Shown here: in pieces, positions 8,869 through 44,169 of the stretch
Layout: every line of letters begins with the position of its first letter
Position numbering within the stretch: position 1 is the first letter of the stretch
Assembly: GCA_020809425.1 (NCBI GenBank)
Contig: JAGGDC010000004.1
Location: 372,001-436,000, forward strand
Origin: Candidatus Synoicihabitans palmerolidicus
GTDB taxonomy: Bacteria > Verrucomicrobiota > Verrucomicrobiia > Opitutales > Opitutaceae
Reading direction: 5' to 3'
Length of the DNA stretch: 64,000 bases
The notes under the pieces: generated by a model
Database searches by the model: none
Told to the model about the DNA's origin: nothing
The model's input: only the letters and a program-made list of their open reading frames with translations
Translations under genes and position numbers: made by a program

Positions 8869-10176
8869 TGAGGTGGACCCCGTCGGTGGGACAGGTCGGG
8901 CGGATGTATAGTTATGGTTTCTGGTTTTTCTGACCAAGCATAAAAGATAATGGAGGGGTGCCGGGGAGGAAGCGCGACTTCCTCCCCGCTCGGATAGCCG
9001 CCGTCAGGCGGCGGCTTGGTCGAGTTGTGCGTGGTAGACCTCGGATGGTGTTTGGCGGCCGTGGGCGGAGTGCGGTCGTCGGTCGTTGTAGAACAGCAAG
9101 TAGGTCTCCAAGTTGGCATGGGCCTCGACCATCGTCTCATAGCGTTTCAGATAGACTGCCTCGTATTTGACGCTGCGCCACAGGCGTTCGACCAAGACAT
9201 GGTCCAAGCACCGTCCTTTGCCGTCCATCGACAGTCGCACGCCGGCGGCCAACAATGGCTGGGTGAACTCGGCGCTGGTAAACGGGCAGCCTTAGTCGGT
9301 GTTGAAGATCTCCGGCTTGCCGTAAATCGCCATCGCGCGCTGCACCGCACGCAAAACGACGCATCGAGCGTGTTGGACAGTTCCCATGCGAGCACCATCC
9401 GCGAGTGCCAGTCGATCACCGCACACCGGGATGTAGGTGATATCTGTTGCCCACCCTTGATTCGACCTTTCAACCTTCCGCGTTCGCAGCAGATACGGGT
9501 AGATCTGATGAGAGGCCGCTTTCTTCGACAGACTCGGTTTTGGATAGATCGCCGTGAGTCCCATTAATCGCATCAATCGTCGCACCCGTTTACGGTTCAC
9601 CACGTGTCCTTCGCGTTGCAACCAACGGGTCATTTGGCGGCTACCAAAGAACGGTGACTCGAGGTAGATCTCGTCGATCTGTTTCATCAACGCCAGGTCC
9701 GCTTCCTTCGGTGGCTTCGGGTGGTGGTAGTAGGTTGAGCGTGGCAGCTCCAACAGTTCGCACTGCCGGGCCACACTCAGCTTCGGATGCTCGGTTTCGA
9801 TCATGCTGCGGCGCTCTTTACTCTCCAAATGGGCCAACTTTTTTTGAGCCACTCGAACTCCATCTGCAGCTGCCCGATCCGCGCATACAGTTCCTTCTCT
9901 TTCTTTGCGATTCCGCTCGATCTCGTCGCGCACCTGCGCCGAGGGCTTCGCGAAGACCTCCGGCAACCGCTCGGACACCTCCTTCTTCCACTGACTCACT
10001 TGCACCGGATGCACCGCGTGACGCTGCGCGATTACGTGGATCGGCTCGATTCCCTTGAGGGCTTCGAGCCCTACTTTCGCTGTGAACTCGGCACTGCAGG
10101 CACGTCGTTGCTTCGACATATTGGACTCCTTTGGGATTTAATCATCCCTCCTGTCCCACTTCATGGGTCCACCTCA
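8869..10176 (-). mobile_element. IS3-family element, left-arm copy (1,308 bp)
   Basis: The terminal repeats are tgaggtggacc at one end and its complement at the other, with the related inner sequences gaagtgggacagg and cggtgggacagg. It encodes one transposase region on the minus strand. The flanks (tac at 8866-8868, caa at 10177-10179) do not give a 3-bp duplication, so the DNA beside at least one end has been deleted since insertion. The outer end cuts the hemN coding sequence. Confidence 0.9.
9004..10119 (-). pseudogene. IS3 transposase (OrfA/OrfB), disrupted
   Basis: OrfA begins MSKQRRACSAEFTAKVGLEAL with the usual helix-turn-helix, and OrfB holds the rve integrase domain (HPKLSVARQCELLELPRSTYY, then GSRQMTRWL, RVRRLMRLMGL, WATDITYIPV, ERLWRSVKYEAVYLK and YNDRRPHSAHGRQTPSEVY). 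Lesions include frame changes in the OrfA-OrfB joint, a shift after TYIP where the second half of the catalytic core moves frame, and a TAA at 9292-9294 in place of the glutamine codon after FNTD. The right-arm copy shares every lesion, so duplication came after decay. Confidence 0.9.
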
Positions 10177-10226
10177 CAACCCTTGGCACGGGTTGCGTGT
10201 TAATTGCCCAGATATTGCGCTACCGC

Positions 10227-11039
10227 TTAGTTCGGAATCACCAACTGCATCCCAATTTGCAGATCATTCTCTGAGCGCATCTTGTCACGATTGGCCGCGA
10301 AAATGTCCCAAAACCGCGAGGGCGTCCCAAAGTAGCGGCGCGAAAGATTTGAGAGCGTATCTCCCTTCACCACGGTGTGCATGCGGACCGCCGGAGCCGT
10401 GCGCTCGGCGGGAGGTCGAGTCGGAGGAGCCAATTGCCGCATCGGAGGAACTTCGTCCGGCACCGTCGAGATTCGCGATGAAGTCTCGGGCACCGACGTA
10501 ATCGCCTTATTTGAATCAGATCGACGCGGAACCGGAGCGCTGACCGCAGGGTTGCCGCGCAAGCGCGATAGCTCGTCTTTCAAACGCATGTTTTCATTCT
10601 TCAATTCCTCCACGACGTCCAACACAGCGTTACGCATCAATTGATTCTCCACCGGCTGCGCGGGCAGCGTTCGCGCGAAATCACGCGTTGCGGAATCAAT
10701 ACGCTGCCGCACCAAATCCGCCTGCGGGGCATTGGGCTTCAACTCCAAGTAGCGACGAAAATGATAGATCGCCGCCACAGGATCCTTGATCTCGAGTTGA
10801 TAGAGCAGCCCGACCTCCAAATGTGACTCCGGCGCCCCATCTCGCCTCGAATCGAGAACCTTAAAAAACTCGGAAAGTGCGGCTTGCTCCTGGCCCTGAC
10901 GCAAAAATCGCTTACCCTCTACAAACGAAGGTTCGGTGACCTCGGCCACCGGCTGGGAATCAGGCAAACGATTGCAGCCGTTCGCGAGTAAGCCACCCAC
11001 GACCAGCAGCAAAGTGGAAAGTTGGCGCAGTCGAATCAT
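10227..11039 (-). CDS. LysM-domain lipoprotein (left copy)
   Basis: 270 residues from the start at 11039; an in-frame start at 11066 adds nine residues before the signal peptide. The N-terminus is a lipoprotein signal with lipobox LLANGC, so the mature protein would be lipid-anchored. Residues about 35-110 look like a TPR-type helical region (KRFLRQGQEQAALSEFF ... AIYHFRRYLELKPNAP). A short coiled coil follows (NENMRLKDELSRLR), then a proline-rich linker. A C-terminal LysM domain (HTVVKGDTLSNLSRRYFG ... LQIGMQLVIPN) binds peptidoglycan. It is divergent from kdsD. Identical to the copy at 41999-42811. Confidence 0.88.
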   Translation of the reverse strand: MIRLRQLSTLLLVVGGLLANGCNRLPDSQPVAEVTEPSFVEGKRFLRQGQEQAALSEFFKVLDSRRDGAPESHLEVGLLYQLEIKDPVAAIYHFRRYLELKPNAPQADLVRQRIDSATRDFARTLPAQPVENQLMRNAVLDVVEELKNENMRLKDELSRLRGNPAVSAPVPRRSDSNKAITSVPETSSRISTVPDEVPPMRQLAPPTRPPAERTAPAVRMHTVVKGDTLSNLSRRYFGTPSRFWDIFAANRDKMRSENDLQIGMQLVIPN

Positions 11040-11112
11040 CACGGGAAAAGGAATTGAACGTCCCAAGGTTACTTTCTAAGTCTGGCAATCCCTCCCGTGA
11101 CACAAACTCTAA

Positions 11113-12102
11113 ATGGCAATCGCACCTAAATCCGCCCTTAAACGCGCCCGAGCCTGCCTTGCCATCGAACAGGATGCCATCGCCGCCACCGCCGCGTCGC
11201 TCGACAAGTCGTTCGTCGCCGTGGCCCGCGCCATCGAGGCCGCCGCGGCCTCTCACGGAAAACTTATCTGCTCCGGCGTCGGTAAATCAGCCCATATCGC
11301 TCAAAAACTGGTCGGCACGTTCAACAGCACGGGTCTGCCGACTTGTTTCCTCGACGCCACCCAAGCTTTACACGGCGACTTGGGACTCTGCGCGCAAGGG
11401 GACATCGCAATCCTCTTCAGCAACAGTGGTCAATCCGAGGAGGTGCTACGCCTCCTCCCCTTGTTGCGCCGCCTCGGAGTAATCGTCATCGCCTGCACCT
11501 CGAACCTCGATTCGGATCTGGCTCGCGAAGCCGATCACGTCCTCAGCTACGTCGTCCCACGCGAAGCTTGCCCGTTGGAGCTCGCTCCCACTGCGAGCAC
11601 CACCGCCGCCCTCGCCATTGGAGATGCGCTCGCGATGGTCTTGCTCGAGTCACGCGGCCTTACGCGCGATGACTTCGCCAAATATCACCCCGCCGGTAAT
11701 CTGGGTCGAATTCTCCTGCTTCGCGTGTCAGATATCATGCGCCAAGCCGAACGTCTTGCCATCGCTCCTGATACCGTATCCGTCCAGGATTCCATTCTCG
11801 CCATGACCAAGGCCAAGAGCGGCAGCATCGCTCTAGTCAGCCCCAAAACCGGTAAACTCACCGGCATCCTCACTGACGGAGACTGCCGCCGTGCCGCCCT
11901 ATCAGGCCCCAACTTCCTGCAGCAACCTGTTCACACATTCATGACCAAGGGACCCAAAACCGTTCGCGAGGACGCTCTCGGGGTCGATGCCCTGCGTCTA
12001 TTCGAAGCGCACAAGATCGACGACCTCATCGTCGTAAATCGCGCCGGTAAACCCGTCGGGTTGGTGGATGGTCAGGATCTGCCTAAACTAAAAATCGTCT
12101 AG
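11113..12102 (+). CDS. kdsD: Arabinose-5-phosphate isomerase KdsD/KpsF (left copy)
   Basis: 329 residues: an SIS domain followed by two CBS domains. It interconverts D-ribulose 5-phosphate and D-arabinose 5-phosphate, the first step to Kdo for lipopolysaccharide. Visible SIS motifs are CSGVGKSAHIAQKLVGTFNS, the ALHGDLG loop with the active-site histidine, FSNSGQSEEV and YHPAGNLGR. The CBS pair starts about residue 208 (VSDIMRQAERLAI) and includes GILTDGDCRRA and TFMTKGPKTV. The length matches E. coli KdsD (328). It is followed after 111 bp by the fumarase gene on the same strand. Confidence 0.95.
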   Translation: MAIAPKSALKRARACLAIEQDAIAATAASLDKSFVAVARAIEAAAASHGKLICSGVGKSAHIAQKLVGTFNSTGLPTCFLDATQALHGDLGLCAQGDIAILFSNSGQSEEVLRLLPLLRRLGVIVIACTSNLDSDLAREADHVLSYVVPREACPLELAPTASTTAALAIGDALAMVLLESRGLTRDDFAKYHPAGNLGRILLLRVSDIMRQAERLAIAPDTVSVQDSILAMTKAKSGSIALVSPKTGKLTGILTDGDCRRAALSGPNFLQQPVHTFMTKGPKTVREDALGVDALRLFEAHKIDDLIVVNRAGKPVGLVDGQDLPKLKIV

Positions 12103-12213
12103 ATCCGCCCCATTTCCCTTATCCCAACCCTCTGCGCATCCTTTGCCGTTGCTTGCGCATCCGAGAGATTTTGATCCCCGTCTGCCTTGTAGCCACTTAA
12201 TTTATCCGCCGTC

Positions 12214-13854
12214 ATGTCTACGCCGCCCTTCGTCTACCAAGACTCCTTCCCGCTCGGAGAAGACACCACTGAATATCGCCTACTGTCACGGGAAGGCATC
12301 AGCACTGCCGAATTCGAAGGTCAGTCGATTTTGAAGGTAGCCCCCGAAGTCTTGTCATACTTGGCCTCCCAAGCCTTCCACGACTGCTCTTTTACCCTAC
12401 GGGAGAAGCACCTCAAACAGGTCGCCGCCATTCTCGATGATCCCGAGGCCTCCGACAACGATCGTTATGTCGCCACGACATTGCTCAAAAACGCCGAAAT
12501 AGCCGCTGAAGGCATCCTTCCCTTTTGCCAAGACACCGGCACTGCGATCGTCATGGGGAAAAAAGGTCAATGTGTCTGGACGGGAGCCAACGACGCCGAG
12601 GCCCTCTCCCAAGGCATCTACGAGTGCTACACCAGGGAAAACCTCCGCCATTCCCAGGCCGCTCCTCTCACCATGTTTGAGGAGAAGAATACCGGCACCA
12701 ACCTCCCCGCCCAAATCGACCTCTACGCGACCGAAGGCGACGAATATAGATTCCTCTTTGTCGCCAAGGGCGGGGGCTCCGCCAACAAGACCTTCCTGTT
12801 CCAGCAAACCCGCGCGCTCCTCAATCCCAAAAGCCTCGAAACGTTCCTGCTCGAGAAAATGAAGACGCTCGGCACCGCGGCCTGCCCTCCCTACCATCTC
12901 ACTTTTGTCCTCGGTGGCACCAGCGCCGAAACTTGTCTCAAAATCGTCAAACTCGCCTCGACCAAATATCTGGACGCCCTGCCCACCAGCGGTAACGAAC
13001 ACGGCCGGGCGTTCCGCGACGTGGAGTTGGAGGAAAAGGTGCTTAAACTCGCGCAAAGCACCGGCATCGGGGCTCAATTCGGAGGTAAATACTTCGCCCT
13101 GGACGTCCGCATTGTGCGCCTGCCTCGCCACGGTGCATCCTGCCCCGTTGGCATGGGGGTCTCGTGCAGCGCCGACCGCAACATCAAGGCCAAGATCAAC
13201 CGCGAAGGTATCTGGTTGGAAAAGATGGAGACCAATCCAGGCCGGCTGATCCCTGAAGCCATGCGCACGCTCAAACAGGAGAACGTCGTGCACATCGACC
13301 TCAACCAACCGATGCGCGCCATCCTCGCCGAGCTCAGCAAACATCCCGTCACCACTCGAGTACTCCTCAACGGTCCTATGATCGTCGCCCGCGATATCGC
13401 TCACGCCAAACTCAAGGACCGTATCGACGCTGGCGAAGGCTTGCCCGACTACCTCAAGCAACACCCGGTCTACTACGCTGGCCCCGCCCCAACCCCCAAG
13501 GGCTACGCGTCCGGCAGTTTTGGTCCGACCACCGCAGGTCGCATGGACAGCTACGTCGACCTTTTTCAATCCCACGGTGGCTCCATGATCATGCTCGCCA
13601 AAGGCAACCGCTCCCACGCAGTGACCCAAGCCTGCCAAACCCACGGCGGATTTTACCTCGGCTCCATCGGCGGGACCGCCGCCATCTTGGCCAAGAAAAG
13701 CATCCGGAAAGTCGAAGTCCTCGAATATCCCGAACTGGGCATGGAGGCCGTCTGGAAAATCGAGGTGGGAAATTTCCCGGCGTTCATTCTCGTGGATGAC
13801 AAAGGCAACGACTTCTTCGTCAACGGCTGCGCTGCGTGCGTGCCAGGCAAATAA
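12214..13854 (+). CDS. fumA: Class I (Fe-S) fumarate hydratase (left copy)
   Basis: 546 residues, the size of E. coli FumA/FumB. It hydrates fumarate to malate in the TCA cycle with a labile [4Fe-4S] cluster. Candidate cluster cysteines are in [25 protein letters not shown] and [12 protein letters not shown]. The C-terminal beta domain contains [13 protein letters not shown], the catalytic-region [20 protein letters not shown] and the end [10 protein letters not shown]. The frame is intact and the minus-strand copy at 39184-40824 is identical. Retention of both copies doubles dosage. A long antisense open frame lies over it but has no protein character. Confidence 0.96.
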
Positions 13855-13912
13855 ATCACACGACCGTAAATTAACCCACATCACGGTCCCCTGACCGCCT
13901 TCCACTACCCGC

Positions 13913-14331
13913 ATGTCGAGATTCGTGATGTTAAGTTCTCTGTGTTCCGGTTCCGGATGGTTGATTGATGTGATCAACGCTCATCCTGAAATCGATTGCT
14001 GTGGTGTGTAATTTCGCTCTCAACGCGTCCGAGAAAACAGCCCTCGCATTTACCACATTTACCCACGCAGCCGTGAAGCTCAAACCGGCTGGCTGGGGCC
14101 ATGGCGCTATCTGAGGAGCTTTTACTCTCTTCCCGGGACGACACTGAGGTTTAAGCTGATGTATGGTGAAGCCCGTGATCATCCGGTCGTGCCACTCTAC
14201 CTGCTGACCCACCGCATCCCAGTCATTCATTTGGTTCGAGAAAATCAATTGGACGCCATTATTTCCTGGGAAATTGTGCAACCAGGCACGATACCGTGGC
14301 ACGTTCAGCAGGATACCAACGCACCAAGTGA
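13913..14331 (+). pseudogene. Sulfotransferase-like gene, truncated by IS66
   Basis: Read from the ATG at 13913, the frame gives SSLCSGSGWLIDVINAHPEI (a 5'-PAPS-loop-like start of sulfotransferases) and later RIPVIHLVRENQLDAIISWE (the 3'-phosphate-binding strand and helix). Together these mark the Stf0/NodH-type sulfotransferase family. A TAA at 14009-14011 interrupts the frame, and the IS66 end at 14332 removes the C-terminal half. The remainder of the gene is not found beyond the IS66 element, where the rplQ terminator region begins instead, so DNA was deleted there. Confidence 0.7.
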
Positions 14332-14390
14332 GTAAGCGTCCGAGAGGCGACCTCCTATGCGGGAAGTGATTTTGCGGGTAAATGGGCAGG

Positions 14391-14745
14391 ATGGAAGCAA
14401 TTGAAGTGGAGGTGCAGAACAACAAGCGCGATGGTCGCGGACGCTAGCTGCGTAGCGCAGAAGAGTGGGCGCAGTTGGCGGCGATCTCCCGCGAGAGCGG
14501 CCTGACGCAGAAGGCGTTCGCGAAGCGCGAGGGCCTCAAATACGCGACGTTTGTGGCATGGCTGGGACGGCCCGGCGGCGCAAGGGTGCGGAGGCGGAGG
14601 CGGCGGGCCCTTCGTTCGCAACGCCCCACCTCCAACGATGTCGCCTCCGGCGGCATCGTTGGAGGTGGGGCTGCCGGACGGCACGCGGTTGCGTGGTGAC
14701 GATCCGATCGCCATGGCCGCGTTGGTCAAAGCCCTGCGCAACTGA
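14391..14745 (+). pseudogene. IS66 tnpA (OrfA), nonsense and frameshift
   Basis: The ATG at 14391 opens MEAIEVEVQNNKRDGRGR, then TAG at 14445-14447 stops translation after 18 codons. The frame continues as LRSAEEWAQLAAISRESGLTQK and FAKREGLKYATFVAWLGR, the helix-turn-helix region of IS66 OrfA. The expected C-terminus (VGLPDGTRLRG ... AALVKALRN) is in a different frame. A strong palindrome at 14623-14671 lies just before that C-terminus. The gene is inactive in both arm copies. Confidence 0.8.
14623..14671. repeat. Near-perfect 49-bp palindrome inside IS66
   Basis: The 18-bp arm gccccacctccaacgatg (14623-14640) is perfectly complementary to 14654-14671. The 13-bp spacer folds further with four more pairs (14642-14645 with 14649-14652) after one mismatch. 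The result is a long GC-rich hairpin. It also occurs at 38367-38415 in the right arm. Confidence 0.9.
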
Positions 14746-14750
14746 CGGCA

Positions 14751-16152
14751 ATGATCGGTTTGCCTTCGGCGCTGACGATCCACCTAGCAATTGAACCGGT
14801 GGATATGCGAAAACAGTTTGACGGGTGGTGAACTGTGGCTTCCCAGGTGCTGCGTGAAGATCCCTTTGGCGGTGCGTTGTTCGTGTTCACCAACAAGCGG
14901 CGTAACCGGGTGAAGTTGCTGTATTGGGATGGCACCGGCGTGTGGGTGCTGGCGGCCCCGGAGCAGTTTGAAAAGATCGGCGAGGAGCGCAGCTTCGAGG
15001 TCGATGTGGTGCCGACGAAGTTGTTCAAGCGCGAGTTCGTGCGCCCGAAGTATCGGGCCAAGGCCCAGCTCGATCGTGCGCCGGTGGTGGCACCCGCACG
15101 GGTGCGCCCGGTGGAGGGCGGCTACGCCTCGGCGGGACTCTTGGCCTGGGTGTTGATCAGCAAGTATGTCGATCACGCCCCGCGGTATCGGCTCGAGAAG
15201 ATGTCGTCGCGCTGGGGAGCGCGCCTGCCGCGTCAGAGTATGGTCGAGTGGGTGCGCATCGCCTCAGACTGGCTGGAACCGATTTACCAGGGCATGCGCC
15301 GCAGGTTGCTCGAATCCAGGCTACGTGCCAGTCGATGAAACGCCGGTGCGATGTCACGACCCGGATCAAAAACGGGGCAAAATCAAGAATGGATGGATGT
15401 GGGTGATGAGCGGCCCGGGTGATGACGTGTTCTTCGACTGGCGATCATCGCGCCAGCACGGTGAACTGACGTCGCTGGTCGAAGGTTTTGCCGGGATAAT
15501 GCCATCCGATGGCTATGGTGCCTATCCCGCGTATCTGGCGACGCATCCCGAGGTGCGTTGGGTGGGCTGCTGGGCACACGCGCGGCGTAAGTTTTTTGAA
15601 GCCCAAGCGGAGAACTCGCGAGTAGCCCAATGGATCCTGCGGCTGATCGCATGGATGTATCATCAGGACAAGCAGTGGGATGAGGCCGGTATCGATGCGC
15701 GGCAGCGGCAGCAAAGACGCGAGCGCGACTTTACCCATAAGCTGTATTGGTTGCGCGTGGTGGTGTGGAGGCTGCGCGCGCACGTGCGCCCCAAGTCCGG
15801 CCTGGGCAAGGCCTGCACCTACCTGCGCGGTCAGTGGAAACCATTGGTCGCGCGCCTGCAGCACGGTGAAACCCGGCTGGACAACAATCTGGTGGAAAAC
15901 GCCATCCGCCCCTCAGCGTTGGGCAAAAAGCACTGGCTGTTCGTAGGGCATCCCGATGCCGGCCAACGCTCGGCGATCATCTACTCGATCGTGATCAGCT
16001 GCCAACGTCACGGGCACGACCCGTTGGACTATCTGCGCGACGTGCTCACCAGGCTGCCGCAACAACTCCCAGGTGCCGACATCAGCGATCTGCTTTCGGT
16101 TAACTGGAAACCCTCCGTCGACGTCGAACTGCCCGCACCATCGCAATCGTAA
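14751..16152 (+). pseudogene. IS66 tnpB-tnpC deletion fusion with frameshift
   Basis: TnpB starts at ATG 14751 (MIGLPSALTIHLAIEPVDMR), has TGA at 14829-14831, and continues as [20 protein letters not shown] and [10 protein letters not shown]. There it runs straight into the TnpC sequence [19 protein letters not shown], which in the window-start copy follows about 100 TnpC residues; those and the TnpB end are missing. The joint lies in the short shared string gtgctggcggccc. Near 15317 one extra base shifts the frame before the catalytic VDETPVRC. The C-terminal frame then runs intact to 16152, including NNLVENAIRPSALGKKHWLF. No full transposase can be made without frameshifting. Confidence 0.88.
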
Positions 16153-16288
16153 CGATTGCTACATCGAAGTCGTTACCATCGCGGTGCCGTTATCGTTACC
16201 TTCGTTATCAGGCAAGGAAGTCGCCTCTCGGACGCTTACGAGCGATCGTCCCGCTTCCCCACTCGATTACCATCCAGTACGAAGGCAC

Positions 16289-16317
16289 AAAAAAACGCCG
16301 CGGATTGCGCCGCGGCG
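16289..16317 (-). terminator. Rho-independent terminator of the alpha operon
   Basis: On the minus strand a perfect 8-bp stem (cgccgcgg / ccgcggcg, loop of 6) is followed by seven T. It lies 29 bp past the rplQ stop and ends the rpsM-rplQ transcript. It also separates that transcript from the convergent IS66 and fumarase genes of the left arm. Confidence 0.92.
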
Positions 16318-16345
16318 TAACGTTTTAAAACTATTAATAAAAAAC

Positions 16346-16846
16346 TTAGTCTTTCTTCTCTGCCGAATCAGGAGCCTCAGCGACCGGAGCTGCGGCTGCC
16401 ACCACTGGTTCCGCTTCCACCACTGGTGTCTCGACCTGCTTCTTGGCTTTCGAAGCGCCCTTTTTCTTGGGCTTCTTGTAACCAGGATCGTCAGCCTTGA
16501 CGAACTCGATCAGAGCCATCTCGGCAGCATCACCAATACGGGCTCCGAGTTTATAGATACGGGTGTAACCGCCGGGACGATTCAGGAATTCAGTGACCTT
16601 CTCGTCGAAGAGCAAGTTGATCGCGGCAAGATCACGCACGTCTTTCGAGGCAAGACGACGCAAATGTAATGTGGCCTTCTTTGCCTTGGTGACCACCTTC
16701 TCAATGAAGGGACGCAGGGCCTTGGCCTTGGTCAGGGTAGTTTTGATCCGTCCGTGGGTGATCAAGGAAGCGCCCATGTTGGACAACATGGCAGCGCGGT
16801 GCTCGCGGGTGACGCCGAGGGATTGGCGGTGAACTCTATGACGCAT
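16346..16846 (-). CDS. rplQ: 50S ribosomal protein L17
   Basis: 166 residues beginning MRHRVHRQSLGVTREHRAAML, the conserved L17 N-terminus that binds 23S rRNA near the tunnel exit. The core (to about residue 120, PGGYTRIYKLGARIGDAAEMALIE) matches the family. The C-terminus carries an extra tail of about 45 residues rich in Lys, Ala, Val and Glu (E. coli L17 has 127 residues). It is the last gene of the alpha cluster, downstream of rpoA with a 163-bp gap. Confidence 0.97.
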   Translation of the reverse strand: MRHRVHRQSLGVTREHRAAMLSNMGASLITHGRIKTTLTKAKALRPFIEKVVTKAKKATLHLRRLASKDVRDLAAINLLFDEKVTEFLNRPGGYTRIYKLGARIGDAAEMALIEFVKADDPGYKKPKKKGASKAKKQVETPVVEAEPVVAAAAPVAEAPDSAEKKD

Positions 16847-17009
16847 TGTAGTTTATTTACTGATGTTGAGTGGTCTCCGATCGGCTACCAATTCGCAGCG
16901 TAAGCAAATTGGCGGCGCGAAGACCGATGTGGGTGAAAGTGAACGGCAACCAAGAGATCACATAACATGAAATCTTGATTGCCTATCACTCGCCGGCAAA
17001 TGGCGGGTT

Positions 17010-18014
17010 TTAAATTTCCTTCTTCGGATCAAGCAAACGCTCGTCAAACTTCATGCCGAGTGAGAGACCCAAGGCCTCCAGCTTCTCTTTGATTTCGTAG
17101 AGTGATTTCTTACCGAAATTCCGATACTTGAGCATCTCCTGTTCGGTCTTCATGGCGAGTTCGCCAACCGTGGTGATGTTCGCATTGTTCAAGCAGTTGG
17201 CCGCACGAACCGATAGCTCGATTTCGTTTACCGACATATTGAGGAGCTTACGCAGTTTGTTCTGCTCTTCGCTCACCTCTGACTGTTGATTATCGAATTC
17301 GAAGGCCTCCTCGGAAACGCGATCAAACACGTCCAAGTGATGTTTCATGATCGAGCCGGCTTGTTTGAGGGCATCGTCAGGATTGATGCGACCGTCGGTC
17401 CAAATTTCAAGAATGAGCATATCGTAATCGGTGATTTGTCCCACGCGAGTGGCTTCAACTGAATACTTCATGAGCTTCACCGGAGAGAAAAGGGAATCTA
17501 TCGGAATGACGCCTATCGCTTGTTCTTCCTTCTTGCCGAGCTCACCAGGGCAGTATCCACGGCCGGTTTTGATGGTGATCTCGGCCTCAAATTCACGGGC
17601 CTTATCCAAGGTGCAGATCAACTGGTCGGGATTAACGATCGTGATGTTTGCATCGGCCTGAATATCCGCCGCCGTGACCGCACCATCGCGAGCGACGTTC
17701 AATGACAGCACCACTTCATCGCGATTCGCAGTAGAAATGATGAGCACCTTTTTCAGGTTCAATACGATGTCAGTCACATCCTCAACGACGCCGTCGACGC
17801 TTTGGAATTCATGGTTGACCCCTTCGATCTTGATCGAAGCGATGGCCGCACCCTCGATGGAGCTAAGGAGCACCCGACGGAGAGAGTTACCGATGGTATG
17901 TCCATATCCGGCCTCGAAAGGCTCGACGATGAACTTGCCGTAGGTGGCGGTGGAGCCTTCCTCCACCTTCGTTAGCTTATTAGGAAGTTCGAACTTACCG
18001 AGGCGTTTGGGCAT
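17010..18014 (-). CDS. rpoA: RNA polymerase alpha subunit
   Basis: 334 residues. The N-terminal dimerisation domain (about 1-235) has GYGHTIGNSLRRVLLSSIEG and GRGYCPGELGKKEEQAIG. A linker rich in Asn, Gln and Glu follows. The C-terminal domain (about 255-320) has the helix-hairpin-helix motifs ELSVRAANCLNNANITTVGE and NFGKKSLYEIKEKLEALGL that contact UP elements and activators. It lies between rpsD and rplQ as in most bacteria. Confidence 0.98.
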   Translation of the reverse strand: MPKRLGKFELPNKLTKVEEGSTATYGKFIVEPFEAGYGHTIGNSLRRVLLSSIEGAAIASIKIEGVNHEFQSVDGVVEDVTDIVLNLKKVLIISTANRDEVVLSLNVARDGAVTAADIQADANITIVNPDQLICTLDKAREFEAEITIKTGRGYCPGELGKKEEQAIGVIPIDSLFSPVKLMKYSVEATRVGQITDYDMLILEIWTDGRINPDDALKQAGSIMKHHLDVFDRVSEEAFEFDNQQSEVSEEQNKLRKLLNMSVNEIELSVRAANCLNNANITTVGELAMKTEQEMLKYRNFGKKSLYEIKEKLEALGLSLGMKFDERLLDPKKEI

Positions 18015-18110
18015 GGTGTATAAAGATTTGAATCAAAAATTGAAGTTCTAGAAAGAGTAAGTGGAAGCCTTAACGGCAACTTACTCCCAAAACACGGCGC
18101 GCTTGCGCCA

Positions 18111-18722: not shown

Positions 18723-18768
18723 GGAGTGTAATCCTTAAATTTAGAGGGTGGTCGAATTGTGACGCAAA

Positions 18769-19314: not shown

Positions 19315-19326
19315 GGTAGTGGTCCT

Positions 19327-19698: not shown

Positions 19699-19754
19699 AA
19701 TGGAAAGTGTTGGGTGTTGGGAGGAAGGTTAGTTAGAAAAGTAAATCGAGGTGG

Positions 19755-26564: not shown

Positions 26565-26565
26565 T

Positions 26566-32300: not shown

Positions 32301-32319
32301 GGCGGTATAAAGAACGAGG

Positions 32320-34509: not shown

Positions 34510-34529
34510 GAAAATTATTCCTTCCCGGC

Positions 34530-35003: not shown

Positions 35004-35025
35004 GGTCGGTTTTTATAAAATTGGG

Positions 35026-35406: not shown

Positions 35407-36051
35407 GTCTAACGAAGGTGTGAAGGTGAGAAAAGAGGCGAAACGTGAAGAGTCGTCCAAAGCTGATCAAGCTATTTTTTGCGAAAAAAGCGAACCGCGT
35501 AAACCAGCGACAAGCACCGGTTCCGCGATTCAAAAAAGTAACCCACCCAAGGGACGAATTACTCAGTCAGAAAAGGAGTAAGAGCGCACAGATTATTTCG
35601 GTTGAAGACAAGCACTGAAATCAAGTGTGCGTAAATCTCCTCAAAGTCGATTCACTCAACTCAACCCTGCGCACTAAGGACATCCCTCATAAACTGAGTT
35701 AAATAAGCGCCACGCCTATCGTGTGGCATTCTTTGCGATACCCTATCCTGTCTTTTGCGCCCACTGTCGCCCTTCCTCCCCCTGCTTCCCCTCACCGTTC
35801 AACTTGGAAAACGCAGTTCACATGAGAAAAAATATGGTACAAAATTATGCTATCCAGTCGGTCAGTGATTTTCAACCGTTCCCACGCCGACTCACCCGGC
35901 AGGTGAACGGTTCGATGCCTTCGACGGACCGTCACTCGTTCCCACTTCGCGCCCTTCGTTTCCTTGTATGTGCGAACCGATGTTAAGAACGAGCGAGGAC
36001 GGAGCCGAAGGCAGCCTCCGAGAATGGACCATAGAGTTCGTCGCAGGAGGC
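35407..36051. other. Non-coding region upstream of rpsL
   Basis: About 645 bp with no gene recognised. It must hold the promoter for rpsL unless transcription reads through from rpoC, and the left end of IS110 somewhere toward its right side. An imperfect inverted repeat gccacg / cgtgtggc around 35709-35727 with A/T flanks on both sides could be a weak two-way terminator. No clear -35/-10 pair could be defended by eye. Confidence 0.5.
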
Positions 36052-36205
36052 TGCATTCGGCGCGAATGCACATGCGAGGTAAATGCCTTGAATGATGCTC
36101 GCCAGGGTGCGGTGCAGACTGGCCGTCTGCACCGCACGGCAACCCAGAGGCCGATTTGTTACCCGAGGATTTACCTCGAACAGAAGCCCTAGGCCCGGGT
36201 TGCCG
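36052..36205 (+). ncRNA. Structured IS110 leader, candidate bridge RNA
   Basis: Directly upstream of the IS110 transposase gene lie several perfect helices. One pairs tgcattcg with cgaatgca (36052-36070, 3-base loop). A 13-bp helix pairs gtgcggtgcagac with gtctgcaccgcac (36107-36137, 5-base loop). A 10-bp closing helix pairs cgaggtaaat (36075-36084) with atttacctcg (36169-36178). An alternative 9-bp helix pairs cggcaaccc (36137-36145) with gggttgccg (36197-36205). IS110-group elements encode a bridge RNA in this position that pairs with donor and target DNA. The assignment here rests on position and structure only. Confidence 0.5.
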
Positions 36206-36254
36206 ACCTGGTTGAACTCGAACCGCTGAAAGAGCCCTGAGCTCGTATAACAAG

Positions 36255-36798
36255 ATGGAGCAACCCACCCCAGAAAATCAAATCACCGATGTTGGTGTGG
36301 ATATCGCCAAAGATCGTCTCGACTACACCGTCGATGATACTCGCTGTGCCCACGTCGAGAACACCCACCGAGGCCACCGAGCCTTGATCAAGCACCTCCA
36401 GAGTCTGCCCAATGCCCGGGTCGTATGCGAAGCGACTGGCGGCTATAAGCGTGCCATTGTCGCCGCATTGCTCTTGGCCCAGATCCAAATCTGCGTGGTC
36501 AATTCAGGGCGTGTGCGCGCCTTTGCCCGCGCCGCCGGCTTGCTCGCCAAGACCGACCCACTCGACGCTCAACTGTTGCGCCGCTTTGGGTTACAAATGA
36601 AGCCACGCCTGCACCGGGCCCTCGACGAAGCGGCCGCAACCTTGCGTGAGCTGCTCGACTATCGCCGGCAGATCAGTGATCAACTCGTCGCCACAGGCAA
36701 CCGGTGCGAGTTCGCCGGACGCATTTTGCGTGAACGCCTTGAGATCCTGCGGGCGCTTTTAGCCACCGAGCTCGAACAAACCGATGCGCTGATTAAAA
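36255..36798 (+). pseudogene. IS110 transposase, 5' part
   Basis: Start ATG at 36255. The RuvC-like DEDD domain is visible: VGVDIAKDRLDYTVDD (Asp), VVCEATGGYKRAIVAALLL (Glu) and AKTDPLDAQLLRRF (two Asp). The frame is intact until the IS66 end at 36799, where the composite element begins. The coding sequence resumes at 44417. IS110 recombinases act as RNA-guided DNA recombinases in characterised members. Confidence 0.9.
36791..36798. repeat. 8-bp target duplication, left copy
   Basis: gattaaaa immediately before the IS66 terminal base at 36799. The same octamer follows the opposite IS66 terminus at 44416. Eight base pairs is the duplication size of IS66-family transposition. Confidence 0.95.
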
Positions 36799-36885
36799 GT
36801 AAGCGTCCGAGAGGCGACTTCCTTGCCTGATAACGAAGGTAACGATAACGGCACCGCGATGGTAACGACTTCGATGTAGCAATCG

Positions 36886-38287
36886 TTACGATTGCGATGG
36901 TGCGGGCAGTTCGACGTCGACGGAGGGTTTCCAGTTAACCGAAAGCAGATCGCTGATGTCGGCACCTGGGAGTTGTTGCGGCAGCCTGGTGAGCACGTCG
37001 CGCAGATAGTCCAACGGGTCGTGCCCGTGACGTTGGCAGCTGATCACGATCGAGTAGATGATCGCCGAGCGTTGGCCGGCATCGGGATGCCCTACGAACA
37101 GCCAGTGCTTTTTGCCCAACGCTGAGGGGCGGATGGCGTTTTCCACCAGATTGTTGTCCAGCCGGGTTTCACCGTGCTGCAGGCGCGCGACCAATGGTTT
37201 CCACTGACCGCGCAGGTAGGTGCAGGCCTTGCCCAGGCCGGACTTGGGGCGCACGTGCGCGCGCAGCCTCCACACCACCACGCGCAACCAATACAGCTTA
37301 TGGGTAAAGTCGCGCTCGCGTCTTTGCTGCCGCTGCCGCGCATCGATACCGGCCTCATCCCACTGCTTGTCCTGATGATACATCCATGCGATCAGCCGCA
37401 GGATCCATTGGGCTACTCGCGAGTTCTCCGCTTGGGCTTCAAAAAACTTACGCCGCGCGTGTGCCCAGCAGCCCACCCAACGCACCTCGGGATGCGTCGC
37501 CAGATACGCGGGATAGGCACCATAGCCATCGGATGGCATTATCCCGGCAAAACCTTCGACCAGCGACGTCAGTTCACCGTGCTGGCGCGATGATCGCCAG
37601 TCGAAGAACACGTCATCACCCGGGCCGCTCATCACCCACATCCATCCATTCTTGATTTTGCCCCGTTTTTGATCCGGGTCGTGACATCGCACCGGCGTTT
37701 CATCGACTGGCACGTAGCCTGGATTCGAGCAACCTGCGGCGCATGCCCTGGTAAATCGGTTCCAGCCAGTCTGAGGCGATGCGCACCCACTCGACCATAC
37801 TCTGACGCGGCAGGCGCGCTCCCCAGCGCGACGACATCTTCTCGAGCCGATACCGCGGGGCGTGATCGACATACTTGCTGATCAACACCCAGGCCAAGAG
37901 TCCCGCCGAGGCGTAGCCGCCCTCCACCGGGCGCACCCGTGCGGGTGCCACCACCGGCGCACGATCGAGCTGGGCCTTGGCCCGATACTTCGGGCGCACG
38001 AACTCGCGCTTGAACAACTTCGTCGGCACCACATCGACCTCGAAGCTGCGCTCCTCGCCGATCTTTTCAAACTGCTCCGGGGCCGCCAGCACCCACACGC
38101 CGGTGCCATCCCAATACAGCAACTTCACCCGGTTACGCCGCTTGTTGGTGAACACGAACAACGCACCGCCAAAGGGATCTTCACGCAGCACCTGGGAAGC
38201 CACAGTTCACCACCCGTCAAACTGTTTTCGCATATCCACCGGTTCAATTGCTAGGTGGATCGTCAGCGCCGAAGGCAAACCGATCAT
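36886..38287 (-). pseudogene. IS66 tnpB-tnpC fusion, right copy
   Basis: Identical in layout to 14751-16152. TnpB begins at 38287, carries TGA at 38207-38209, runs into TnpC after [10 protein letters not shown], and shifts frame near 37721 before VDETPVRC. No complete DDE transposase is encoded. Movement would need transposase supplied by another copy, or translational frameshifting. Confidence 0.88.
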
Positions 38288-38292
38288 TGCCG

Positions 38293-38647
38293 TCAGTTGC
38301 GCAGGGCTTTGACCAACGCGGCCATGGCGATCGGATCGTCACCACGCAACCGCGTGCCGTCCGGCAGCCCCACCTCCAACGATGCCGCCGGAGGCGACAT
38401 CGTTGGAGGTGGGGCGTTGCGAACGAAGGGCCCGCCGCCTCCGCCTCCGCACCCTTGCGCCGCCGGGCCGTCCCAGCCATGCCACAAACGTCGCGTATTT
38501 GAGGCCCTCGCGCTTCGCGAACGCCTTCTGCGTCAGGCCGCTCTCGCGGGAGATCGCCGCCAACTGCGCCCACTCTTCTGCGCTACGCAGCTAGCGTCCG
38601 CGACCATCGCGCTTGTTGTTCTGCACCTCCACTTCAATTGCTTCCAT
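38293..38647 (-). pseudogene. IS66 tnpA, right copy
   Basis: Same as 14391-14745: start at 38647, TAG at 38591-38593 after 18 codons, then the helix-turn-helix region SGLTQKAFAKREGLKYATFV and a frame-displaced C-terminus. The palindrome 38367-38415 lies within it. Confidence 0.8.
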
Positions 38648-38706
38648 CCTGCCCATTTACCCGCAAAATCACTTCCCGCATAGGAGGTCGCCTCTCGGAC
38701 GCTTAC

Positions 38707-39125
38707 TCACTTGGTGCGTTGGTATCCTGCTGAACGTGCCACGGTATCGTGCCTGGTTGCACAATTTCCCAGGAAATAATGGCGTCCAATTGATTTTCTC
38801 GAACCAAATGAATGACTGGGATGCGGTGGGTCAGCAGGTAGAGTGGCACGACCGGATGATCACGGGCTTCACCATACATCAGCTTAAACCTCAGTGTCGT
38901 CCCGGGAAGAGAGTAAAAGCTCCTCAGATAGCGCCATGGCCCCAGCCAGCCGGTTTGAGCTTCACGGCTGCGTGGGTAAATGTGGTAAATGCGAGGGCTG
39001 TTTTCTCGGACGCGTTGAGAGCGAAATTACACACCACAGCAATCGATTTCAGGATGAGCGTTGATCACATCAATCAACCATCCGGAACCGGAACACAGAG
39101 AACTTAACATCACGAATCTCGACAT
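38707..39125 (-). pseudogene. Sulfotransferase-like fragment, right copy
   Basis: Reverse-complement copy of 13913-14331, with start at 39125, stop TAA at 39027-39029 and truncation by the IS66 end. Sulfotransferase motifs are the same (SSLCSGSGWLIDVI and VIHLVRENQLDAIIS). Because the truncation is shared, IS66 was already beside this gene before the segment was duplicated. Confidence 0.7.
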
Positions 39126-39183
39126 GCGGGTAGTGGAAGGCGGTCAGGGGACCGTGATGTGGGTTAATTTACGGTCGTGTGAT

Positions 39184-40824
39184 TTATTTGCCTGGCACGC
39201 ACGCAGCGCAGCCGTTGACGAAGAAGTCGTTGCCTTTGTCATCCACGAGAATGAACGCCGGGAAATTTCCCACCTCGATTTTCCAGACGGCCTCCATGCC
39301 CAGTTCGGGATATTCGAGGACTTCGACTTTCCGGATGCTTTTCTTGGCCAAGATGGCGGCGGTCCCGCCGATGGAGCCGAGGTAAAATCCGCCGTGGGTT
39401 TGGCAGGCTTGGGTCACTGCGTGGGAGCGGTTGCCTTTGGCGAGCATGATCATGGAGCCACCGTGGGATTGAAAAAGGTCGACGTAGCTGTCCATGCGAC
39501 CTGCGGTGGTCGGACCAAAACTGCCGGACGCGTAGCCCTTGGGGGTTGGGGCGGGGCCAGCGTAGTAGACCGGGTGTTGCTTGAGGTAGTCGGGCAAGCC
39601 TTCGCCAGCGTCGATACGGTCCTTGAGTTTGGCGTGAGCGATATCGCGGGCGACGATCATAGGACCGTTGAGGAGTACTCGAGTGGTGACGGGATGTTTG
39701 CTGAGCTCGGCGAGGATGGCGCGCATCGGTTGGTTGAGGTCGATGTGCACGACGTTCTCCTGTTTGAGCGTGCGCATGGCTTCAGGGATCAGCCGGCCTG
39801 GATTGGTCTCCATCTTTTCCAACCAGATACCTTCGCGGTTGATCTTGGCCTTGATGTTGCGGTCGGCGCTGCACGAGACCCCCATGCCAACGGGGCAGGA
39901 TGCACCGTGGCGAGGCAGGCGCACAATGCGGACGTCCAGGGCGAAGTATTTACCTCCGAATTGAGCCCCGATGCCGGTGCTTTGCGCGAGTTTAAGCACC
40001 TTTTCCTCCAACTCCACGTCGCGGAACGCCCGGCCGTGTTCGTTACCGCTGGTGGGCAGGGCGTCCAGATATTTGGTCGAGGCGAGTTTGACGATTTTGA
40101 GACAAGTTTCGGCGCTGGTGCCACCGAGGACAAAAGTGAGATGGTAGGGAGGGCAGGCCGCGGTGCCGAGCGTCTTCATTTTCTCGAGCAGGAACGTTTC
40201 GAGGCTTTTGGGATTGAGGAGCGCGCGGGTTTGCTGGAACAGGAAGGTCTTGTTGGCGGAGCCCCCGCCCTTGGCGACAAAGAGGAATCTATATTCGTCG
40301 CCTTCGGTCGCGTAGAGGTCGATTTGGGCGGGGAGGTTGGTGCCGGTATTCTTCTCCTCAAACATGGTGAGAGGAGCGGCCTGGGAATGGCGGAGGTTTT
40401 CCCTGGTGTAGCACTCGTAGATGCCTTGGGAGAGGGCCTCGGCGTCGTTGGCTCCCGTCCAGACACATTGACCTTTTTTCCCCATGACGATCGCAGTGCC
40501 GGTGTCTTGGCAAAAGGGAAGGATGCCTTCAGCGGCTATTTCGGCGTTTTTGAGCAATGTCGTGGCGACATAACGATCGTTGTCGGAGGCCTCGGGATCA
40601 TCGAGAATGGCGGCGACCTGTTTGAGGTGCTTCTCCCGTAGGGTAAAAGAGCAGTCGTGGAAGGCTTGGGAGGCCAAGTATGACAAGACTTCGGGGGCTA
40701 CCTTCAAAATCGACTGACCTTCGAATTCGGCAGTGCTGATGCCTTCCCGTGACAGTAGGCGATATTCAGTGGTGTCTTCTCCGAGCGGGAAGGAGTCTTG
40801 GTAGACGAAGGGCGGCGTAGACAT
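39184..40824 (-). CDS. fumA: Class I fumarate hydratase (right copy)
   Basis: 546 residues, identical to the protein encoded at 12214-13854. The cluster cysteines and the C-terminal beta domain are intact, so both copies could be active. As cargo of the composite transposon it now lies between rpoC and rpsL, transcribed in the same direction as the ribosomal genes. Its upstream region, including the whole kdsD-fumA spacer, is copied as well, so it should keep its own expression signals. Confidence 0.95.
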
Positions 40825-40935
40825 GACGGCGGATAAATTAAGTGGCTACAAGGCAGACGGGGATCAAAATCTCTCGGATGCGCAAGCAACGGCAAAGGAT
40901 GCGCAGAGGGTTGGGATAAGGGAAATGGGGCGGAT

Positions 40936-41925
40936 CTAGACGATTTTTAGTTTAGGCAGATCCTGACCATCCACCAACCCGACGGGTTTACCGGCGCGAT
41001 TTACGACGATGAGGTCGTCGATCTTGTGCGCTTCGAATAGACGCAGGGCATCGACCCCGAGAGCGTCCTCGCGAACGGTTTTGGGTCCCTTGGTCATGAA
41101 TGTGTGAACAGGTTGCTGCAGGAAGTTGGGGCCTGATAGGGCGGCACGGCGGCAGTCTCCGTCAGTGAGGATGCCGGTGAGTTTACCGGTTTTGGGGCTG
41201 ACTAGAGCGATGCTGCCGCTCTTGGCCTTGGTCATGGCGAGAATGGAATCCTGGACGGATACGGTATCAGGAGCGATGGCAAGACGTTCGGCTTGGCGCA
41301 TGATATCTGACACGCGAAGCAGGAGAATTCGACCCAGATTACCGGCGGGGTGATATTTGGCGAAGTCATCGCGCGTAAGGCCGCGTGACTCGAGCAAGAC
41401 CATCGCGAGCGCATCTCCAATGGCGAGGGCGGCGGTGGTGCTCGCAGTGGGAGCGAGCTCCAACGGGCAAGCTTCGCGTGGGACGACGTAGCTGAGGACG
41501 TGATCGGCTTCGCGAGCCAGATCCGAATCGAGGTTCGAGGTGCAGGCGATGACGATTACTCCGAGGCGGCGCAACAAGGGGAGGAGGCGTAGCACCTCCT
41601 CGGATTGACCACTGTTGCTGAAGAGGATTGCGATGTCCCCTTGCGCGCAGAGTCCCAAGTCGCCGTGTAAAGCTTGGGTGGCGTCGAGGAAACAAGTCGG
41701 CAGACCCGTGCTGTTGAACGTGCCGACCAGTTTTTGAGCGATATGGGCTGATTTACCGACGCCGGAGCAGATAAGTTTTCCGTGAGAGGCCGCGGCGGCC
41801 TCGATGGCGCGGGCCACGGCGACGAACGACTTGTCGAGCGACGCGGCGGTGGCGGCGATGGCATCCTGTTCGATGGCAAGGCAGGCTCGGGCGCGTTTAA
41901 GGGCGGATTTAGGTGCGATTGCCAT
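40936..41925 (-). CDS. kdsD: Arabinose-5-phosphate isomerase KdsD/KpsF (right copy)
   Basis: 329 residues, identical to the left copy at 11113-12102, with the SIS domain and two CBS domains intact. It supplies arabinose 5-phosphate for Kdo synthesis. Divergent from the LysM lipoprotein gene with 73 bp between the starts. Duplicate presence may raise dosage of an envelope pathway gene, although selection for that is not shown. Confidence 0.95.
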   Translation of the reverse strand: MAIAPKSALKRARACLAIEQDAIAATAASLDKSFVAVARAIEAAAASHGKLICSGVGKSAHIAQKLVGTFNSTGLPTCFLDATQALHGDLGLCAQGDIAILFSNSGQSEEVLRLLPLLRRLGVIVIACTSNLDSDLAREADHVLSYVVPREACPLELAPTASTTAALAIGDALAMVLLESRGLTRDDFAKYHPAGNLGRILLLRVSDIMRQAERLAIAPDTVSVQDSILAMTKAKSGSIALVSPKTGKLTGILTDGDCRRAALSGPNFLQQPVHTFMTKGPKTVREDALGVDALRLFEAHKIDDLIVVNRAGKPVGLVDGQDLPKLKIV

Positions 41926-41998
41926 TTAGAGTTTGTGTCACGGGAGGGATTGCCAGACTTAGAAAGTAACCTTGGGACGTTCAATTCCTTTTCCCGTG

Positions 41999-42811
41999 AT
42001 GATTCGACTGCGCCAACTTTCCACTTTGCTGCTGGTCGTGGGTGGCTTACTCGCGAACGGCTGCAATCGTTTGCCTGATTCCCAGCCGGTGGCCGAGGTC
42101 ACCGAACCTTCGTTTGTAGAGGGTAAGCGATTTTTGCGTCAGGGCCAGGAGCAAGCCGCACTTTCCGAGTTTTTTAAGGTTCTCGATTCGAGGCGAGATG
42201 GGGCGCCGGAGTCACATTTGGAGGTCGGGCTGCTCTATCAACTCGAGATCAAGGATCCTGTGGCGGCGATCTATCATTTTCGTCGCTACTTGGAGTTGAA
42301 GCCCAATGCCCCGCAGGCGGATTTGGTGCGGCAGCGTATTGATTCCGCAACGCGTGATTTCGCGCGAACGCTGCCCGCGCAGCCGGTGGAGAATCAATTG
42401 ATGCGTAACGCTGTGTTGGACGTCGTGGAGGAATTGAAGAATGAAAACATGCGTTTGAAAGACGAGCTATCGCGCTTGCGCGGCAACCCTGCGGTCAGCG
42501 CTCCGGTTCCGCGTCGATCTGATTCAAATAAGGCGATTACGTCGGTGCCCGAGACTTCATCGCGAATCTCGACGGTGCCGGACGAAGTTCCTCCGATGCG
42601 GCAATTGGCTCCTCCGACTCGACCTCCCGCCGAGCGCACGGCTCCGGCGGTCCGCATGCACACCGTGGTGAAGGGAGATACGCTCTCAAATCTTTCGCGC
42701 CGCTACTTTGGGACGCCCTCGCGGTTTTGGGACATTTTCGCGGCCAATCGTGACAAGATGCGCTCAGAGAATGATCTGCAAATTGGGATGCAGTTGGTGA
42801 TTCCGAACTAA
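41999..42811 (+). CDS. LysM-domain lipoprotein (right copy)
   Basis: 270 residues, identical to the left copy at 10227-11039: lipobox LLANGC, TPR-like region, coiled coil, proline-rich linker and LysM domain. The frame is intact. It is followed after 50 bp by the IS3 element. Its predicted place is the envelope, bound to peptidoglycan through LysM. Confidence 0.88.
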   Translation: MIRLRQLSTLLLVVGGLLANGCNRLPDSQPVAEVTEPSFVEGKRFLRQGQEQAALSEFFKVLDSRRDGAPESHLEVGLLYQLEIKDPVAAIYHFRRYLELKPNAPQADLVRQRIDSATRDFARTLPAQPVENQLMRNAVLDVVEELKNENMRLKDELSRLRGNPAVSAPVPRRSDSNKAITSVPETSSRISTVPDEVPPMRQLAPPTRPPAERTAPAVRMHTVVKGDTLSNLSRRYFGTPSRFWDIFAANRDKMRSENDLQIGMQLVIPN

Positions 42812-42861
42812 GCGGTAGCGCAATATCTGGGCAATTAACACGCAACCCGTGCCAAGGGTTG

Positions 42862-44169
42862 TGAGGTGGACCCATGAAGTGGGACAGGAGGGATGATTAA
42901 ATCCCAAAGGAGTCCAATATGTCGAAGCAACGACGTGCCTGCAGTGCCGAGTTCACAGCGAAAGTAGGGCTCGAAGCCCTCAAGGGAATCGAGCCGATCC
43001 ACGTAATCGCGCAGCGTCACGCGGTGCATCCGGTGCAAGTGAGTCAGTGGAAGAAGGAGGTGTCCGAGCGGTTGCCGGAGGTCTTCGCGAAGCCCTCGGC
43101 GCAGGTGCGCGACGAGATCGAGCGGAATCGCAAAGAAAGAGAAGGAACTGTATGCGCGGATCGGGCAGCTGCAGATGGAGTTCGAGTGGCTCAAAAAAAG
43201 TTGGCCCATTTGGAGAGTAAAGAGCGCCGCAGCATGATCGAAACCGAGCATCCGAAGCTGAGTGTGGCCCGGCAGTGCGAACTGTTGGAGCTGCCACGCT
43301 CAACCTACTACCACCACCCGAAGCCACCGAAGGAAGCGGACCTGGCGTTGATGAAACAGATCGACGAGATCTACCTCGAGTCACCGTTCTTTGGTAGCCG
43401 CCAAATGACCCGTTGGTTGCAACGCGAAGGACACGTGGTGAACCGTAAACGGGTGCGACGATTGATGCGATTAATGGGACTCACGGCGATCTATCCAAAA
43501 CCGAGTCTGTCGAAGAAAGCGGCCTCTCATCAGATCTACCCGTATCTGCTGCGAACGCGGAAGGTTGAAAGGTCGAATCAAGGGTGGGCAACAGATATCA
43601 CCTACATCCCGGTGTGCGGTGATCGACTGGCACTCGCGGATGGTGCTCGCATGGGAACTGTCCAACACGCTCGATGCGTCGTTTTGCGTGCGGTGCAGCG
43701 CGCGATGGCGATTTACGGCAAGCCGGAGATCTTCAACACCGACTAAGGCTGCCCGTTTACCAGCGCCGAGTTCACCCAGCCATTGTTGGCCGCCGGCGTG
43801 CGACTGTCGATGGACGGCAAAGGACGGTGCTTGGACCATGTCTTGGTCGAACGCCTGTGGCGCAGCGTCAAATACGAGGCAGTCTATCTGAAACGCTATG
43901 AGACGATGGTCGAGGCCCATGCCAACTTGGAGACCTACTTGCTGTTCTACAACGACCGACGACCGCACTCCGCCCACGGCCGCCAAACACCATCCGAGGT
44001 CTACCACGCACAACTCGACCAAGCCGCCGCCTGACGGCGGCTATCCGAGCGGGGAGGAAGTCGCGCTTCCTCCCCGGCACCCCTCCATTATCTTTTATGC
44101 TTGGTCAGAAAAACCAGAAACCATAACTATACATCCGCCCGACCTGTCCCACCGACGGGGTCCACCTCA
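42862..44169 (+). mobile_element. IS3-family element, right-arm copy
   Basis: Reverse-complement copy of 8869-10176 with the same terminal repeats (tgaggtggacc and complement). The flanks ttg (42859-42861) and cgc (44170-44172) show no duplication. Its outer end sits inside IS66 tnpA sequence, in contrast to the left copy, where it sits in hemN. Confidence 0.9.
42919..44034 (+). pseudogene. IS3 transposase, right copy, disrupted
   Basis: Same lesions as 9004-10119: frame changes in the OrfA/OrfB joint and after TYIP, and TAA at 43744-43746 after FNTD. The second catalytic half (SMDGKGRCLDHVLVERLWRS and PHSAHGRQTPSEVYHA) ends at 44034. It is inactive. Confidence 0.9.

Follow-up and report, generated by a model that had tools for sequence, protein, structure and literature searches.

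What put two identical, inverted arms on either side of the ribosomal protein cluster of Candidatus Synoicihabitans palmerolidicus, and can the segment between them turn over? The stretch analysed, referred to below as the window, comprises 64,000 nucleotides of contig JAGGDC010000004.1 (assembly GCA_020809425.1). A preliminary description reported a perfect 7.4-kb inverted repeat in it, and sequence comparison bears this out: the 7371 bp at positions 8869-16239 match the reverse complement of 36799-44169 with 0 mismatches, and a repeat scan recovers the identical pair with a spacing of 20559 bp between the arms. Arm identity by chance is out of the question. The identity breaks off sharply at both ends, exactly at the outer end of an IS3-family insertion sequence (IS) and the inner end of an IS66-family one. 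We hold with moderate confidence that the inverted repeat is an IS-bounded segmental duplication made by recombination; that it is a duplication made by one biological route or another is very likely.

The two arms and their cargo

Each arm has the order IS3 - LysM gene - kdsD - fumA - IS66. The arms are:

8869..16239, plus strand: arm 1, the apparent source copy, its left side in native context (sequence comparison, gene order in relatives)
36799..44169, minus strand: arm 2, the apparent copy, nested in IS66 and IS110 (sequence comparison, IS110 empty site)

The whole assembly (10 contigs, 4,399,668 bp) was searched for the arm and its parts. Among the matches listed, the full arm was found twice, its first 1308 bp and last 1.9 kb recurred many times, and arm positions 1314-5457 had no further match in the organism's own assembly. 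These DNA searches scored the best 40 of 130 candidates for the full arm and the best 40 of 56, 40 of 95 and 40 of 193 in the others, and the match counts are lower bounds. Because the ends recur many times and the middle has no other listed match, each arm consists of insertion sequences at its ends and of otherwise single-copy material, present twice, in its middle. The repeat scan likewise shows portions of each arm recurring elsewhere in the window.

The cargo, with the neighbour of arm 1 on its left, is:

7536..8868, minus strand: hemN-like pseudogene in several frames, 5' end cut at the IS3, native neighbour of the LysM gene
10227..11066, minus strand: LysM gene (LysM domain, weak TPR and lipoprotein matches); arm 2 copy 41972-42811, plus strand
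11113..12102, plus strand: kdsD/kpsF-type sugar-phosphate isomerase gene, open; arm 2 copy 40936-41925, minus strand
12214..13854, plus strand: class I fumarate hydratase gene (fumA), open; arm 2 copy 39184-40824, minus strand

Two relatives represented by single contigs (G001 and G003) have the order hemN-LysM-kdsD-fumA, and in a third (G007) hemN adjoins LysM as well. A fumarase was found in 29 of the 38 genomes searched and none in the other 9. The present genome has fumA twice, all 5 candidates having been scored. Of the 28 further relatives in which it matched, 27 gave a single match, and G021 gave two partial ones, each on its own contig. Given the shared gene order in G001 and G003 and the single fumA match in 27 relatives, the left side of arm 1 lies in its native context. 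Judged by this gene order, arm 1 carries the original genes and arm 2 is the copy. The view that the arms are an old shared feature is unsupported, fumA being single in those relatives that have it whole. The closest fumA among the public contig records searched, from which some records may be missing, is 88% identical. The flanking genes had been named correctly in the preliminary description, hemN outside arm 1 and rplQ on its inner side.

The hemN-like gene (window 7536-8868) is in four frame-broken pieces and cut by the IS3; the only other hemN match listed in the genome, at C1:1412729-1413832, falls below the family cut-off. The spacer between fumA and IS66 in the arm, about 475 bp, had looked by eye like a sulfotransferase remnant, and a family search returned none.

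The insertion sequences of the arms are:

8869..10176, minus strand: IS3-family element of arm 1, ends TGAGGTGGAC...GTCCACCTCA, transposase broken
42862..44169, plus strand: IS3-family element of arm 2, outer end abutting an IS66 5' fragment
14332..16239, plus strand: IS66-family element of arm 1, lacking about 480 bp internally, its transposase split; left flank CCAAGTGA, right flank GAGCGATC, the two unmatched
36799..38706, minus strand: the same deleted IS66 in arm 2, with the target repeat TTTTAATC as its right flank

The lesions that had been described as shared are indeed present in both arms. The IS3 transposase frame has 281 codons, against 386-389 in the three longest copies, and its match to NF033516 reaches 135.6 bits (E 2.5e-39) where the cut-off is 160. 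The IS66 matches DDE_Tnp_IS66, TnpB_IS66 and NF033517, spread over two frames. None of the 10 other close IS66 copies examined has its deletion, which is common to both arms; one arm therefore derives from the other. Copies of these elements generally differ from one another, with a median pairwise identity of 98.2% for IS66 (55 pairs) and 97.6% for IS3 (253 pairs).

The junctions of the second and first arms

The surroundings of arm 2, here called locus 2, contain the following features:

35799..36798, plus strand: IS110-family element, first part, interrupted by arm 2 (left border approximate)
36791..36798, no strand: inner copy of the 8-bp target repeat GATTAAAA
44170..44416, minus strand: first part of an IS66 (query positions 1-246), 96% to the arm IS66, cut off by the IS3; the left end of the locus 2 IS66
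44417..44424, no strand: outer copy of the target repeat GATTAAAA, the pair bracketing arm 2 and the IS66 fragment
44425..44868, plus strand: IS110 remainder (right border approximate)

The target repeat of IS66 is 8 bp long, and an exact 8-bp repeat surrounds arm 2 together with the adjoining IS66 fragment. When the IS110 flanks are joined, all 8 of the other IS110 copies examined align through the joint without an insert; a single copy of the repeat is visible there in six alignments, and over the 40 bases centred on the joint 7 of the 8 copies agree exactly, while L171 differs by one base. Because the joined flanks match the uninterrupted copies, an IS66-type insertion with an 8-bp target repeat took place in IS110. 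This IS110 separates rpoC from rpsL, two genes that adjoin each other on the same strand in G001 and G003. The IS110 of the preliminary description is thus a real element, but it belongs to the host of arm 2 and not to the arms, which end in IS66 on the inner side and IS3 on the outer. As a component of the arms it is ruled out; it is the target into which arm 2 went.

The inner end of arm 1 adjoins a single further feature:

16240..16247, no strand: orphan half of an IS66 target repeat, GAGCGATC, whose mate flanks the IS66 at G000:C3:90477, beside the ancestral rplQ neighbour

The same 8 bp thus reappear to the left of an IS66 at C3:90477. Adjoining that IS66 are about 20 kb of sequence with the genes that in G001 and G003 come after rplQ. 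The best explanation of this pattern is that two IS66 copies recombined and so brought arm 1 next to rplQ. Direct ancestry of the fumA-rplQ neighbourhood is ruled out, the distance from fumA to rpoA being about 206 kb in G001 and 2.4 Mb in G003. The old neighbour of fumA was located at C1:1425-1430 kb, where the border has no contact with an IS66 end.

How the second arm arose

These junctions can be arranged into a series of events. An IS66 inserted into the IS110 between rpoC and rpsL, generating the 8-bp target repeat, a step that can be read directly from the bases. The first 246 bp of this IS66 are now followed by an IS3. At the first locus, arm 1 was most probably joined to rplQ through the recombination of two IS66 copies. 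The IS3-LysM-kdsD-fumA-IS66 block of arm 1, which as assembled is also present, inverted, inside the nest at locus 2, would have been copied there by homologous recombination of the RecA type, either as ectopic gene conversion or as break repair, through IS3 on one side and IS66 on the other. A single ectopic gene conversion could turn an IS66-IS3-IS66 nest at locus 2 into the observed structure, and the orientation of the copy would have been dictated by the elements already there. Later exchange between the arms would maintain their identity up to the IS ends, and occasional crossing-over between them would be expected to invert the enclosed 20.6 kb. A profile match shows recA to be open and above its family cut-off.

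The behaviour of the elements elsewhere in the genome is in keeping with such events. Apart from the arms, matching 8-bp target repeats were found in 2 of the 5 IS66 copies with both ends and are lacking in the other 3. For IS3 the count is 8 of 22, four partial IS3 rows being left out of it, and L114 and L115, both among the eight, share flanks. With so few matching repeats, IS copies in this genome often recombine or suffer deletions. A second IS-bounded pair of 3.8 kb, 99.5% identical, lies at C3:90477-94301 and C5:371209-375037 (the latter containing window positions 1-3037), with flanks that differ on both sides; its existence makes the copying of IS-bounded blocks not unique to the 7.4-kb arms. 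Each member of the pair combines an IS66, truncated at the same base in both, with a neighbouring high-copy element of 1.83 kb, which has at least 45 match rows in the organism's own genome.

Several observations weigh against a duplication by recombination as set out above. A single conversion should leave differences specific to arm 2 in the outer parts of its IS3 and IS66, and there are none, although IS copies generally differ by about 2%; later homogenisation must therefore be added. We infer the second partner at locus 2, namely an IS66 3' part after the IS3. At arm 1 the hemN-like gene is cut flush at the IS3 end, and the gap between the IS3 and the LysM stop is only 50 bp, against 189 bp (G001) and 199 bp (G003) from the matching point of hemN; about 140-150 bp are gone, and a separate deletion is required on this side. 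The IS3 of arm 1 also has no target repeat, its flanks TAC and CAA being different. Finally, no fumA-side mate of CCAAGTGA was found in the right flanks of the examined IS66 copies and of three 3' fragments of IS66. The IS66 at C3:90477, moreover, is a truncated copy, and the complete reciprocal product of the proposed IS66 exchange is accordingly not seen.

Composite transposition offers another route to the same structure. Two IS66 ends, one of them carrying the IS3, would have moved LysM-kdsD-fumA into IS110, and a later deletion adjacent to IS3 would have removed the left IS66 of the donor. The 8-bp repeat encloses the whole unit, from the left end of one IS66 to the right end of the other, and identity ending exactly at the IS ends requires no homogenisation here; the sharp ends and the target repeat are both accounted for better than by gene conversion. 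The flush cut in hemN with its missing bases also agrees with the proposed donor deletion. However, the layout of a composite transposon (IS66 fragment, IS66 and target repeat) is seen at arm 2, while arm 1 is without a left IS66. Because both this IS66 and its remainder after the IS3 are absent from the donor, two flush deletions are needed there. The route also requires a working IS66 transposase. Going by frame length in the sequence as assembled, none of the 14 further IS66 copies examined, of which 10 are close and 4 divergent, encodes a complete TnpC. Only the frame of L103 reaches the length of the 387-position transposase model, and its match ends at position 313; the model was run on L103 and the arm, and the remaining copies were judged by frame length. 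This absence would speak against recent IS66 transposition, although L103 is nearly complete, past activity is possible, and more distant IS66 copies may have escaped the search. We consider composite transposition possible but unlikely.

The duplicated stretch could also be an artefact. The true locus 2 would then be an IS110 with an IS66 interrupted by IS3, through which the assembler or manual finishing threaded the single-copy cargo. Because both ends of the stretch are repeats, such a misassembly is possible, and the total identity of the arms is what it would give. The assembly was made with wtdbg2 and edited by hand, and the list of two-copy repeats (15.3, 17.0 and 27.4 kb) in the part of the genome report available (PMC8636102) does not include the 7.4-kb pair. 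The same source states that the reads were PacBio CCS reads. Moreover, the junctions are specific, the deleted IS66 meeting the TTTTAATC-IS110 flank and the IS66 fragment meeting the IS3. Ketosynthase matches lie in open frames of 7320 and 6213 codons, a sign of good consensus at those places that says nothing on the arm junction. An assembly error is in our judgement distinctly improbable.

The enclosed segment and comparison with known systems

The segment between the arms was said to be 20.6 kb long and to hold the alpha, spc, S10 and str clusters, and Pfam matches to its ribosomal protein frames agree. Its features are:

16295..16318, minus strand: terminator-like hairpin with a T run after rplQ
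16346..35460, minus strand: ribosomal protein cluster from rplQ to rpsL (alpha, spc, S10 and str without tuf)

Eighteen enclosed minus-strand frames, each open, were matched by Pfam: L17, rpoA, S4, S11, S13, SecY, L15, L6, L5, S3, L2, L4, L3, S10, EF-G, S7, S12 and a Map-type M24 peptidase. Further frames we take, from their protein starts alone, to be S5, L18, S8, S14, L24, L14, L16, L22, S19 and L23. Outside the segment, rpoC and rpoB were also matched by Pfam. There is no tuf between fusA and rpsJ (window 32300-32320); an EF-Tu gene lies at 56693-57883, between tRNA-Trp and tRNA-Thr. At Rfam gathering scores the window has three tRNA matches only, with no rRNA, and none of the matches is within the arms.

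Both a substrate and a recombinase for inversion are present, in the form of 7371 bp of inverted homology at 100% and the open recA, and inversion by homologous recombination between the arms, like their homogenisation, is plausible on these grounds. It is conceivable that the segment could invert without breaking genes. The one orientation assembled is the ancestral order, in which rpsL comes after rpoC on a single strand, as it does in G001 and G003, and this is neither proof nor exclusion of a mixture of isomers. That the ribosomal cluster, cut off from rpoBC by the IS nest, behaves as a flipping cassette, with both orientations coexisting and arm exchange keeping the fumA and kdsD copies identical, we regard as doubtful. 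Should the segment prove to invert, it would offer a natural experiment on whether it makes a difference which way round a ribosomal protein cluster lies.

A cassette maintained for its function, in which the arms are kept identical because the symbiont profits from flipping of the cluster or from doubled kdsD and fumA, is most improbable: the cargo genes are open in both arms, a terminator-like site follows rplQ and about 390 bp are retained upstream of rpsL before IS110, but the arrangement is not shared, and a scan of 35300-36000 gave, besides one plus-strand promoter-like match, a single minus-strand one that lies within IS110 (35875-35847), with two minus-strand terminator-like sites of the three found (35564-35536 and 35511-35494) between it and rpsL. 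No special selection is needed, since the arms are IS-bounded and a second such near-identical pair exists. The arrangement looks like insertion-sequence debris and not a designed switch.

The comparison with plastids made in the preliminary description fails beyond the shape. Plastid inverted repeats are two identical inverted arms flanking a single-copy region; they carry rRNA genes and are ancestral to the lineage. The arms here share that geometry, but they consist of two insertion sequences and three ordinary metabolic or envelope genes, without rRNA, and the doubled fumA is found in the present genome only among those searched. The likeness is superficial. Another comparison is the 162-kb pht inversion of Streptococcus pneumoniae D39, for which long inverted repeats also serve as the substrate (1 kb there, 7.4 kb here), whereas here one orientation is known, from the assembly alone (PMC6212727, available in part).

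IS-rich symbiont genomes provide close parallels. According to the available part of one report (PMC3196728), insertion sequences give rise to inversions, duplications and deletions, and Wolbachia wBm is cited for gene conversion between dead IS copies; in Amoebophilus no recent reshuffling was seen and gene conversion was largely ruled out. As far as the material available on such genomes goes, they resemble the present one in having many IS copies, target repeats that are often unmatched, junctions at IS ends and near-identical duplicated blocks. What sets the present case apart is that the order of nesting can be followed to the single base, that host genes are part of the copied block and that this block flanks the ribosomal cluster on both sides. 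The cause of the inverted repeat looks unremarkable for a symbiont so laden with insertion sequences, and the repeat is a clear example of a familiar type of event. No arrangement of this kind was named in the literature searched for precedents, a limited search from which absence from print is not claimed. Layers that can be read from target repeats show how insertion sequences can copy host genes and separate a ribosomal protein cluster from rpoBC.

The organism is an ascidian symbiont with a genome of 4.297 Mb, 58.7% G+C (56.0% in the window) and 96.04% completeness, and it has, besides the three two-copy repeats, five near-identical copies of the pal gene cluster (PMC8636102, in the part available). 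Like the arms, these are near-identical duplicated blocks, some of them flanked by transposases; the 7.4-kb pair differs from the 15.3-, 17.0- and 27.4-kb repeats in being inverted, smaller and absent from the list in that part of the report. The step-wise footprint described here may help to explain the large duplications of this organism, including the repeated palmerolide gene cluster. Completeness of the present assembly is 69.82% against the published 96.04%, despite very long open frames around ketosynthase domains; widespread real pseudogenes might explain the lower value.

Among other IS3 copies, those at C1:572834 and C1:740145 (L134 and L113) have an identical 12-bp left flank and nearly the same right flank, which suggests that they lie inside a duplicated stretch. 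Contigs C2, C7, C8, C9 (86,136 bp) and C10 bear ketosynthase domains in arrays, equal in score and similarly spaced, and parts of these arrays turn up again at ends of the other contigs. Three identical IS3 copies (C1:5692-7033, C5:4014-5355 and C9:77967-79308) have the same right flank and lie near ketosynthase domains close to contig ends. The copy at C1:5692-7033 has a different left flank, so that the repeated cluster may have variable borders at IS3.

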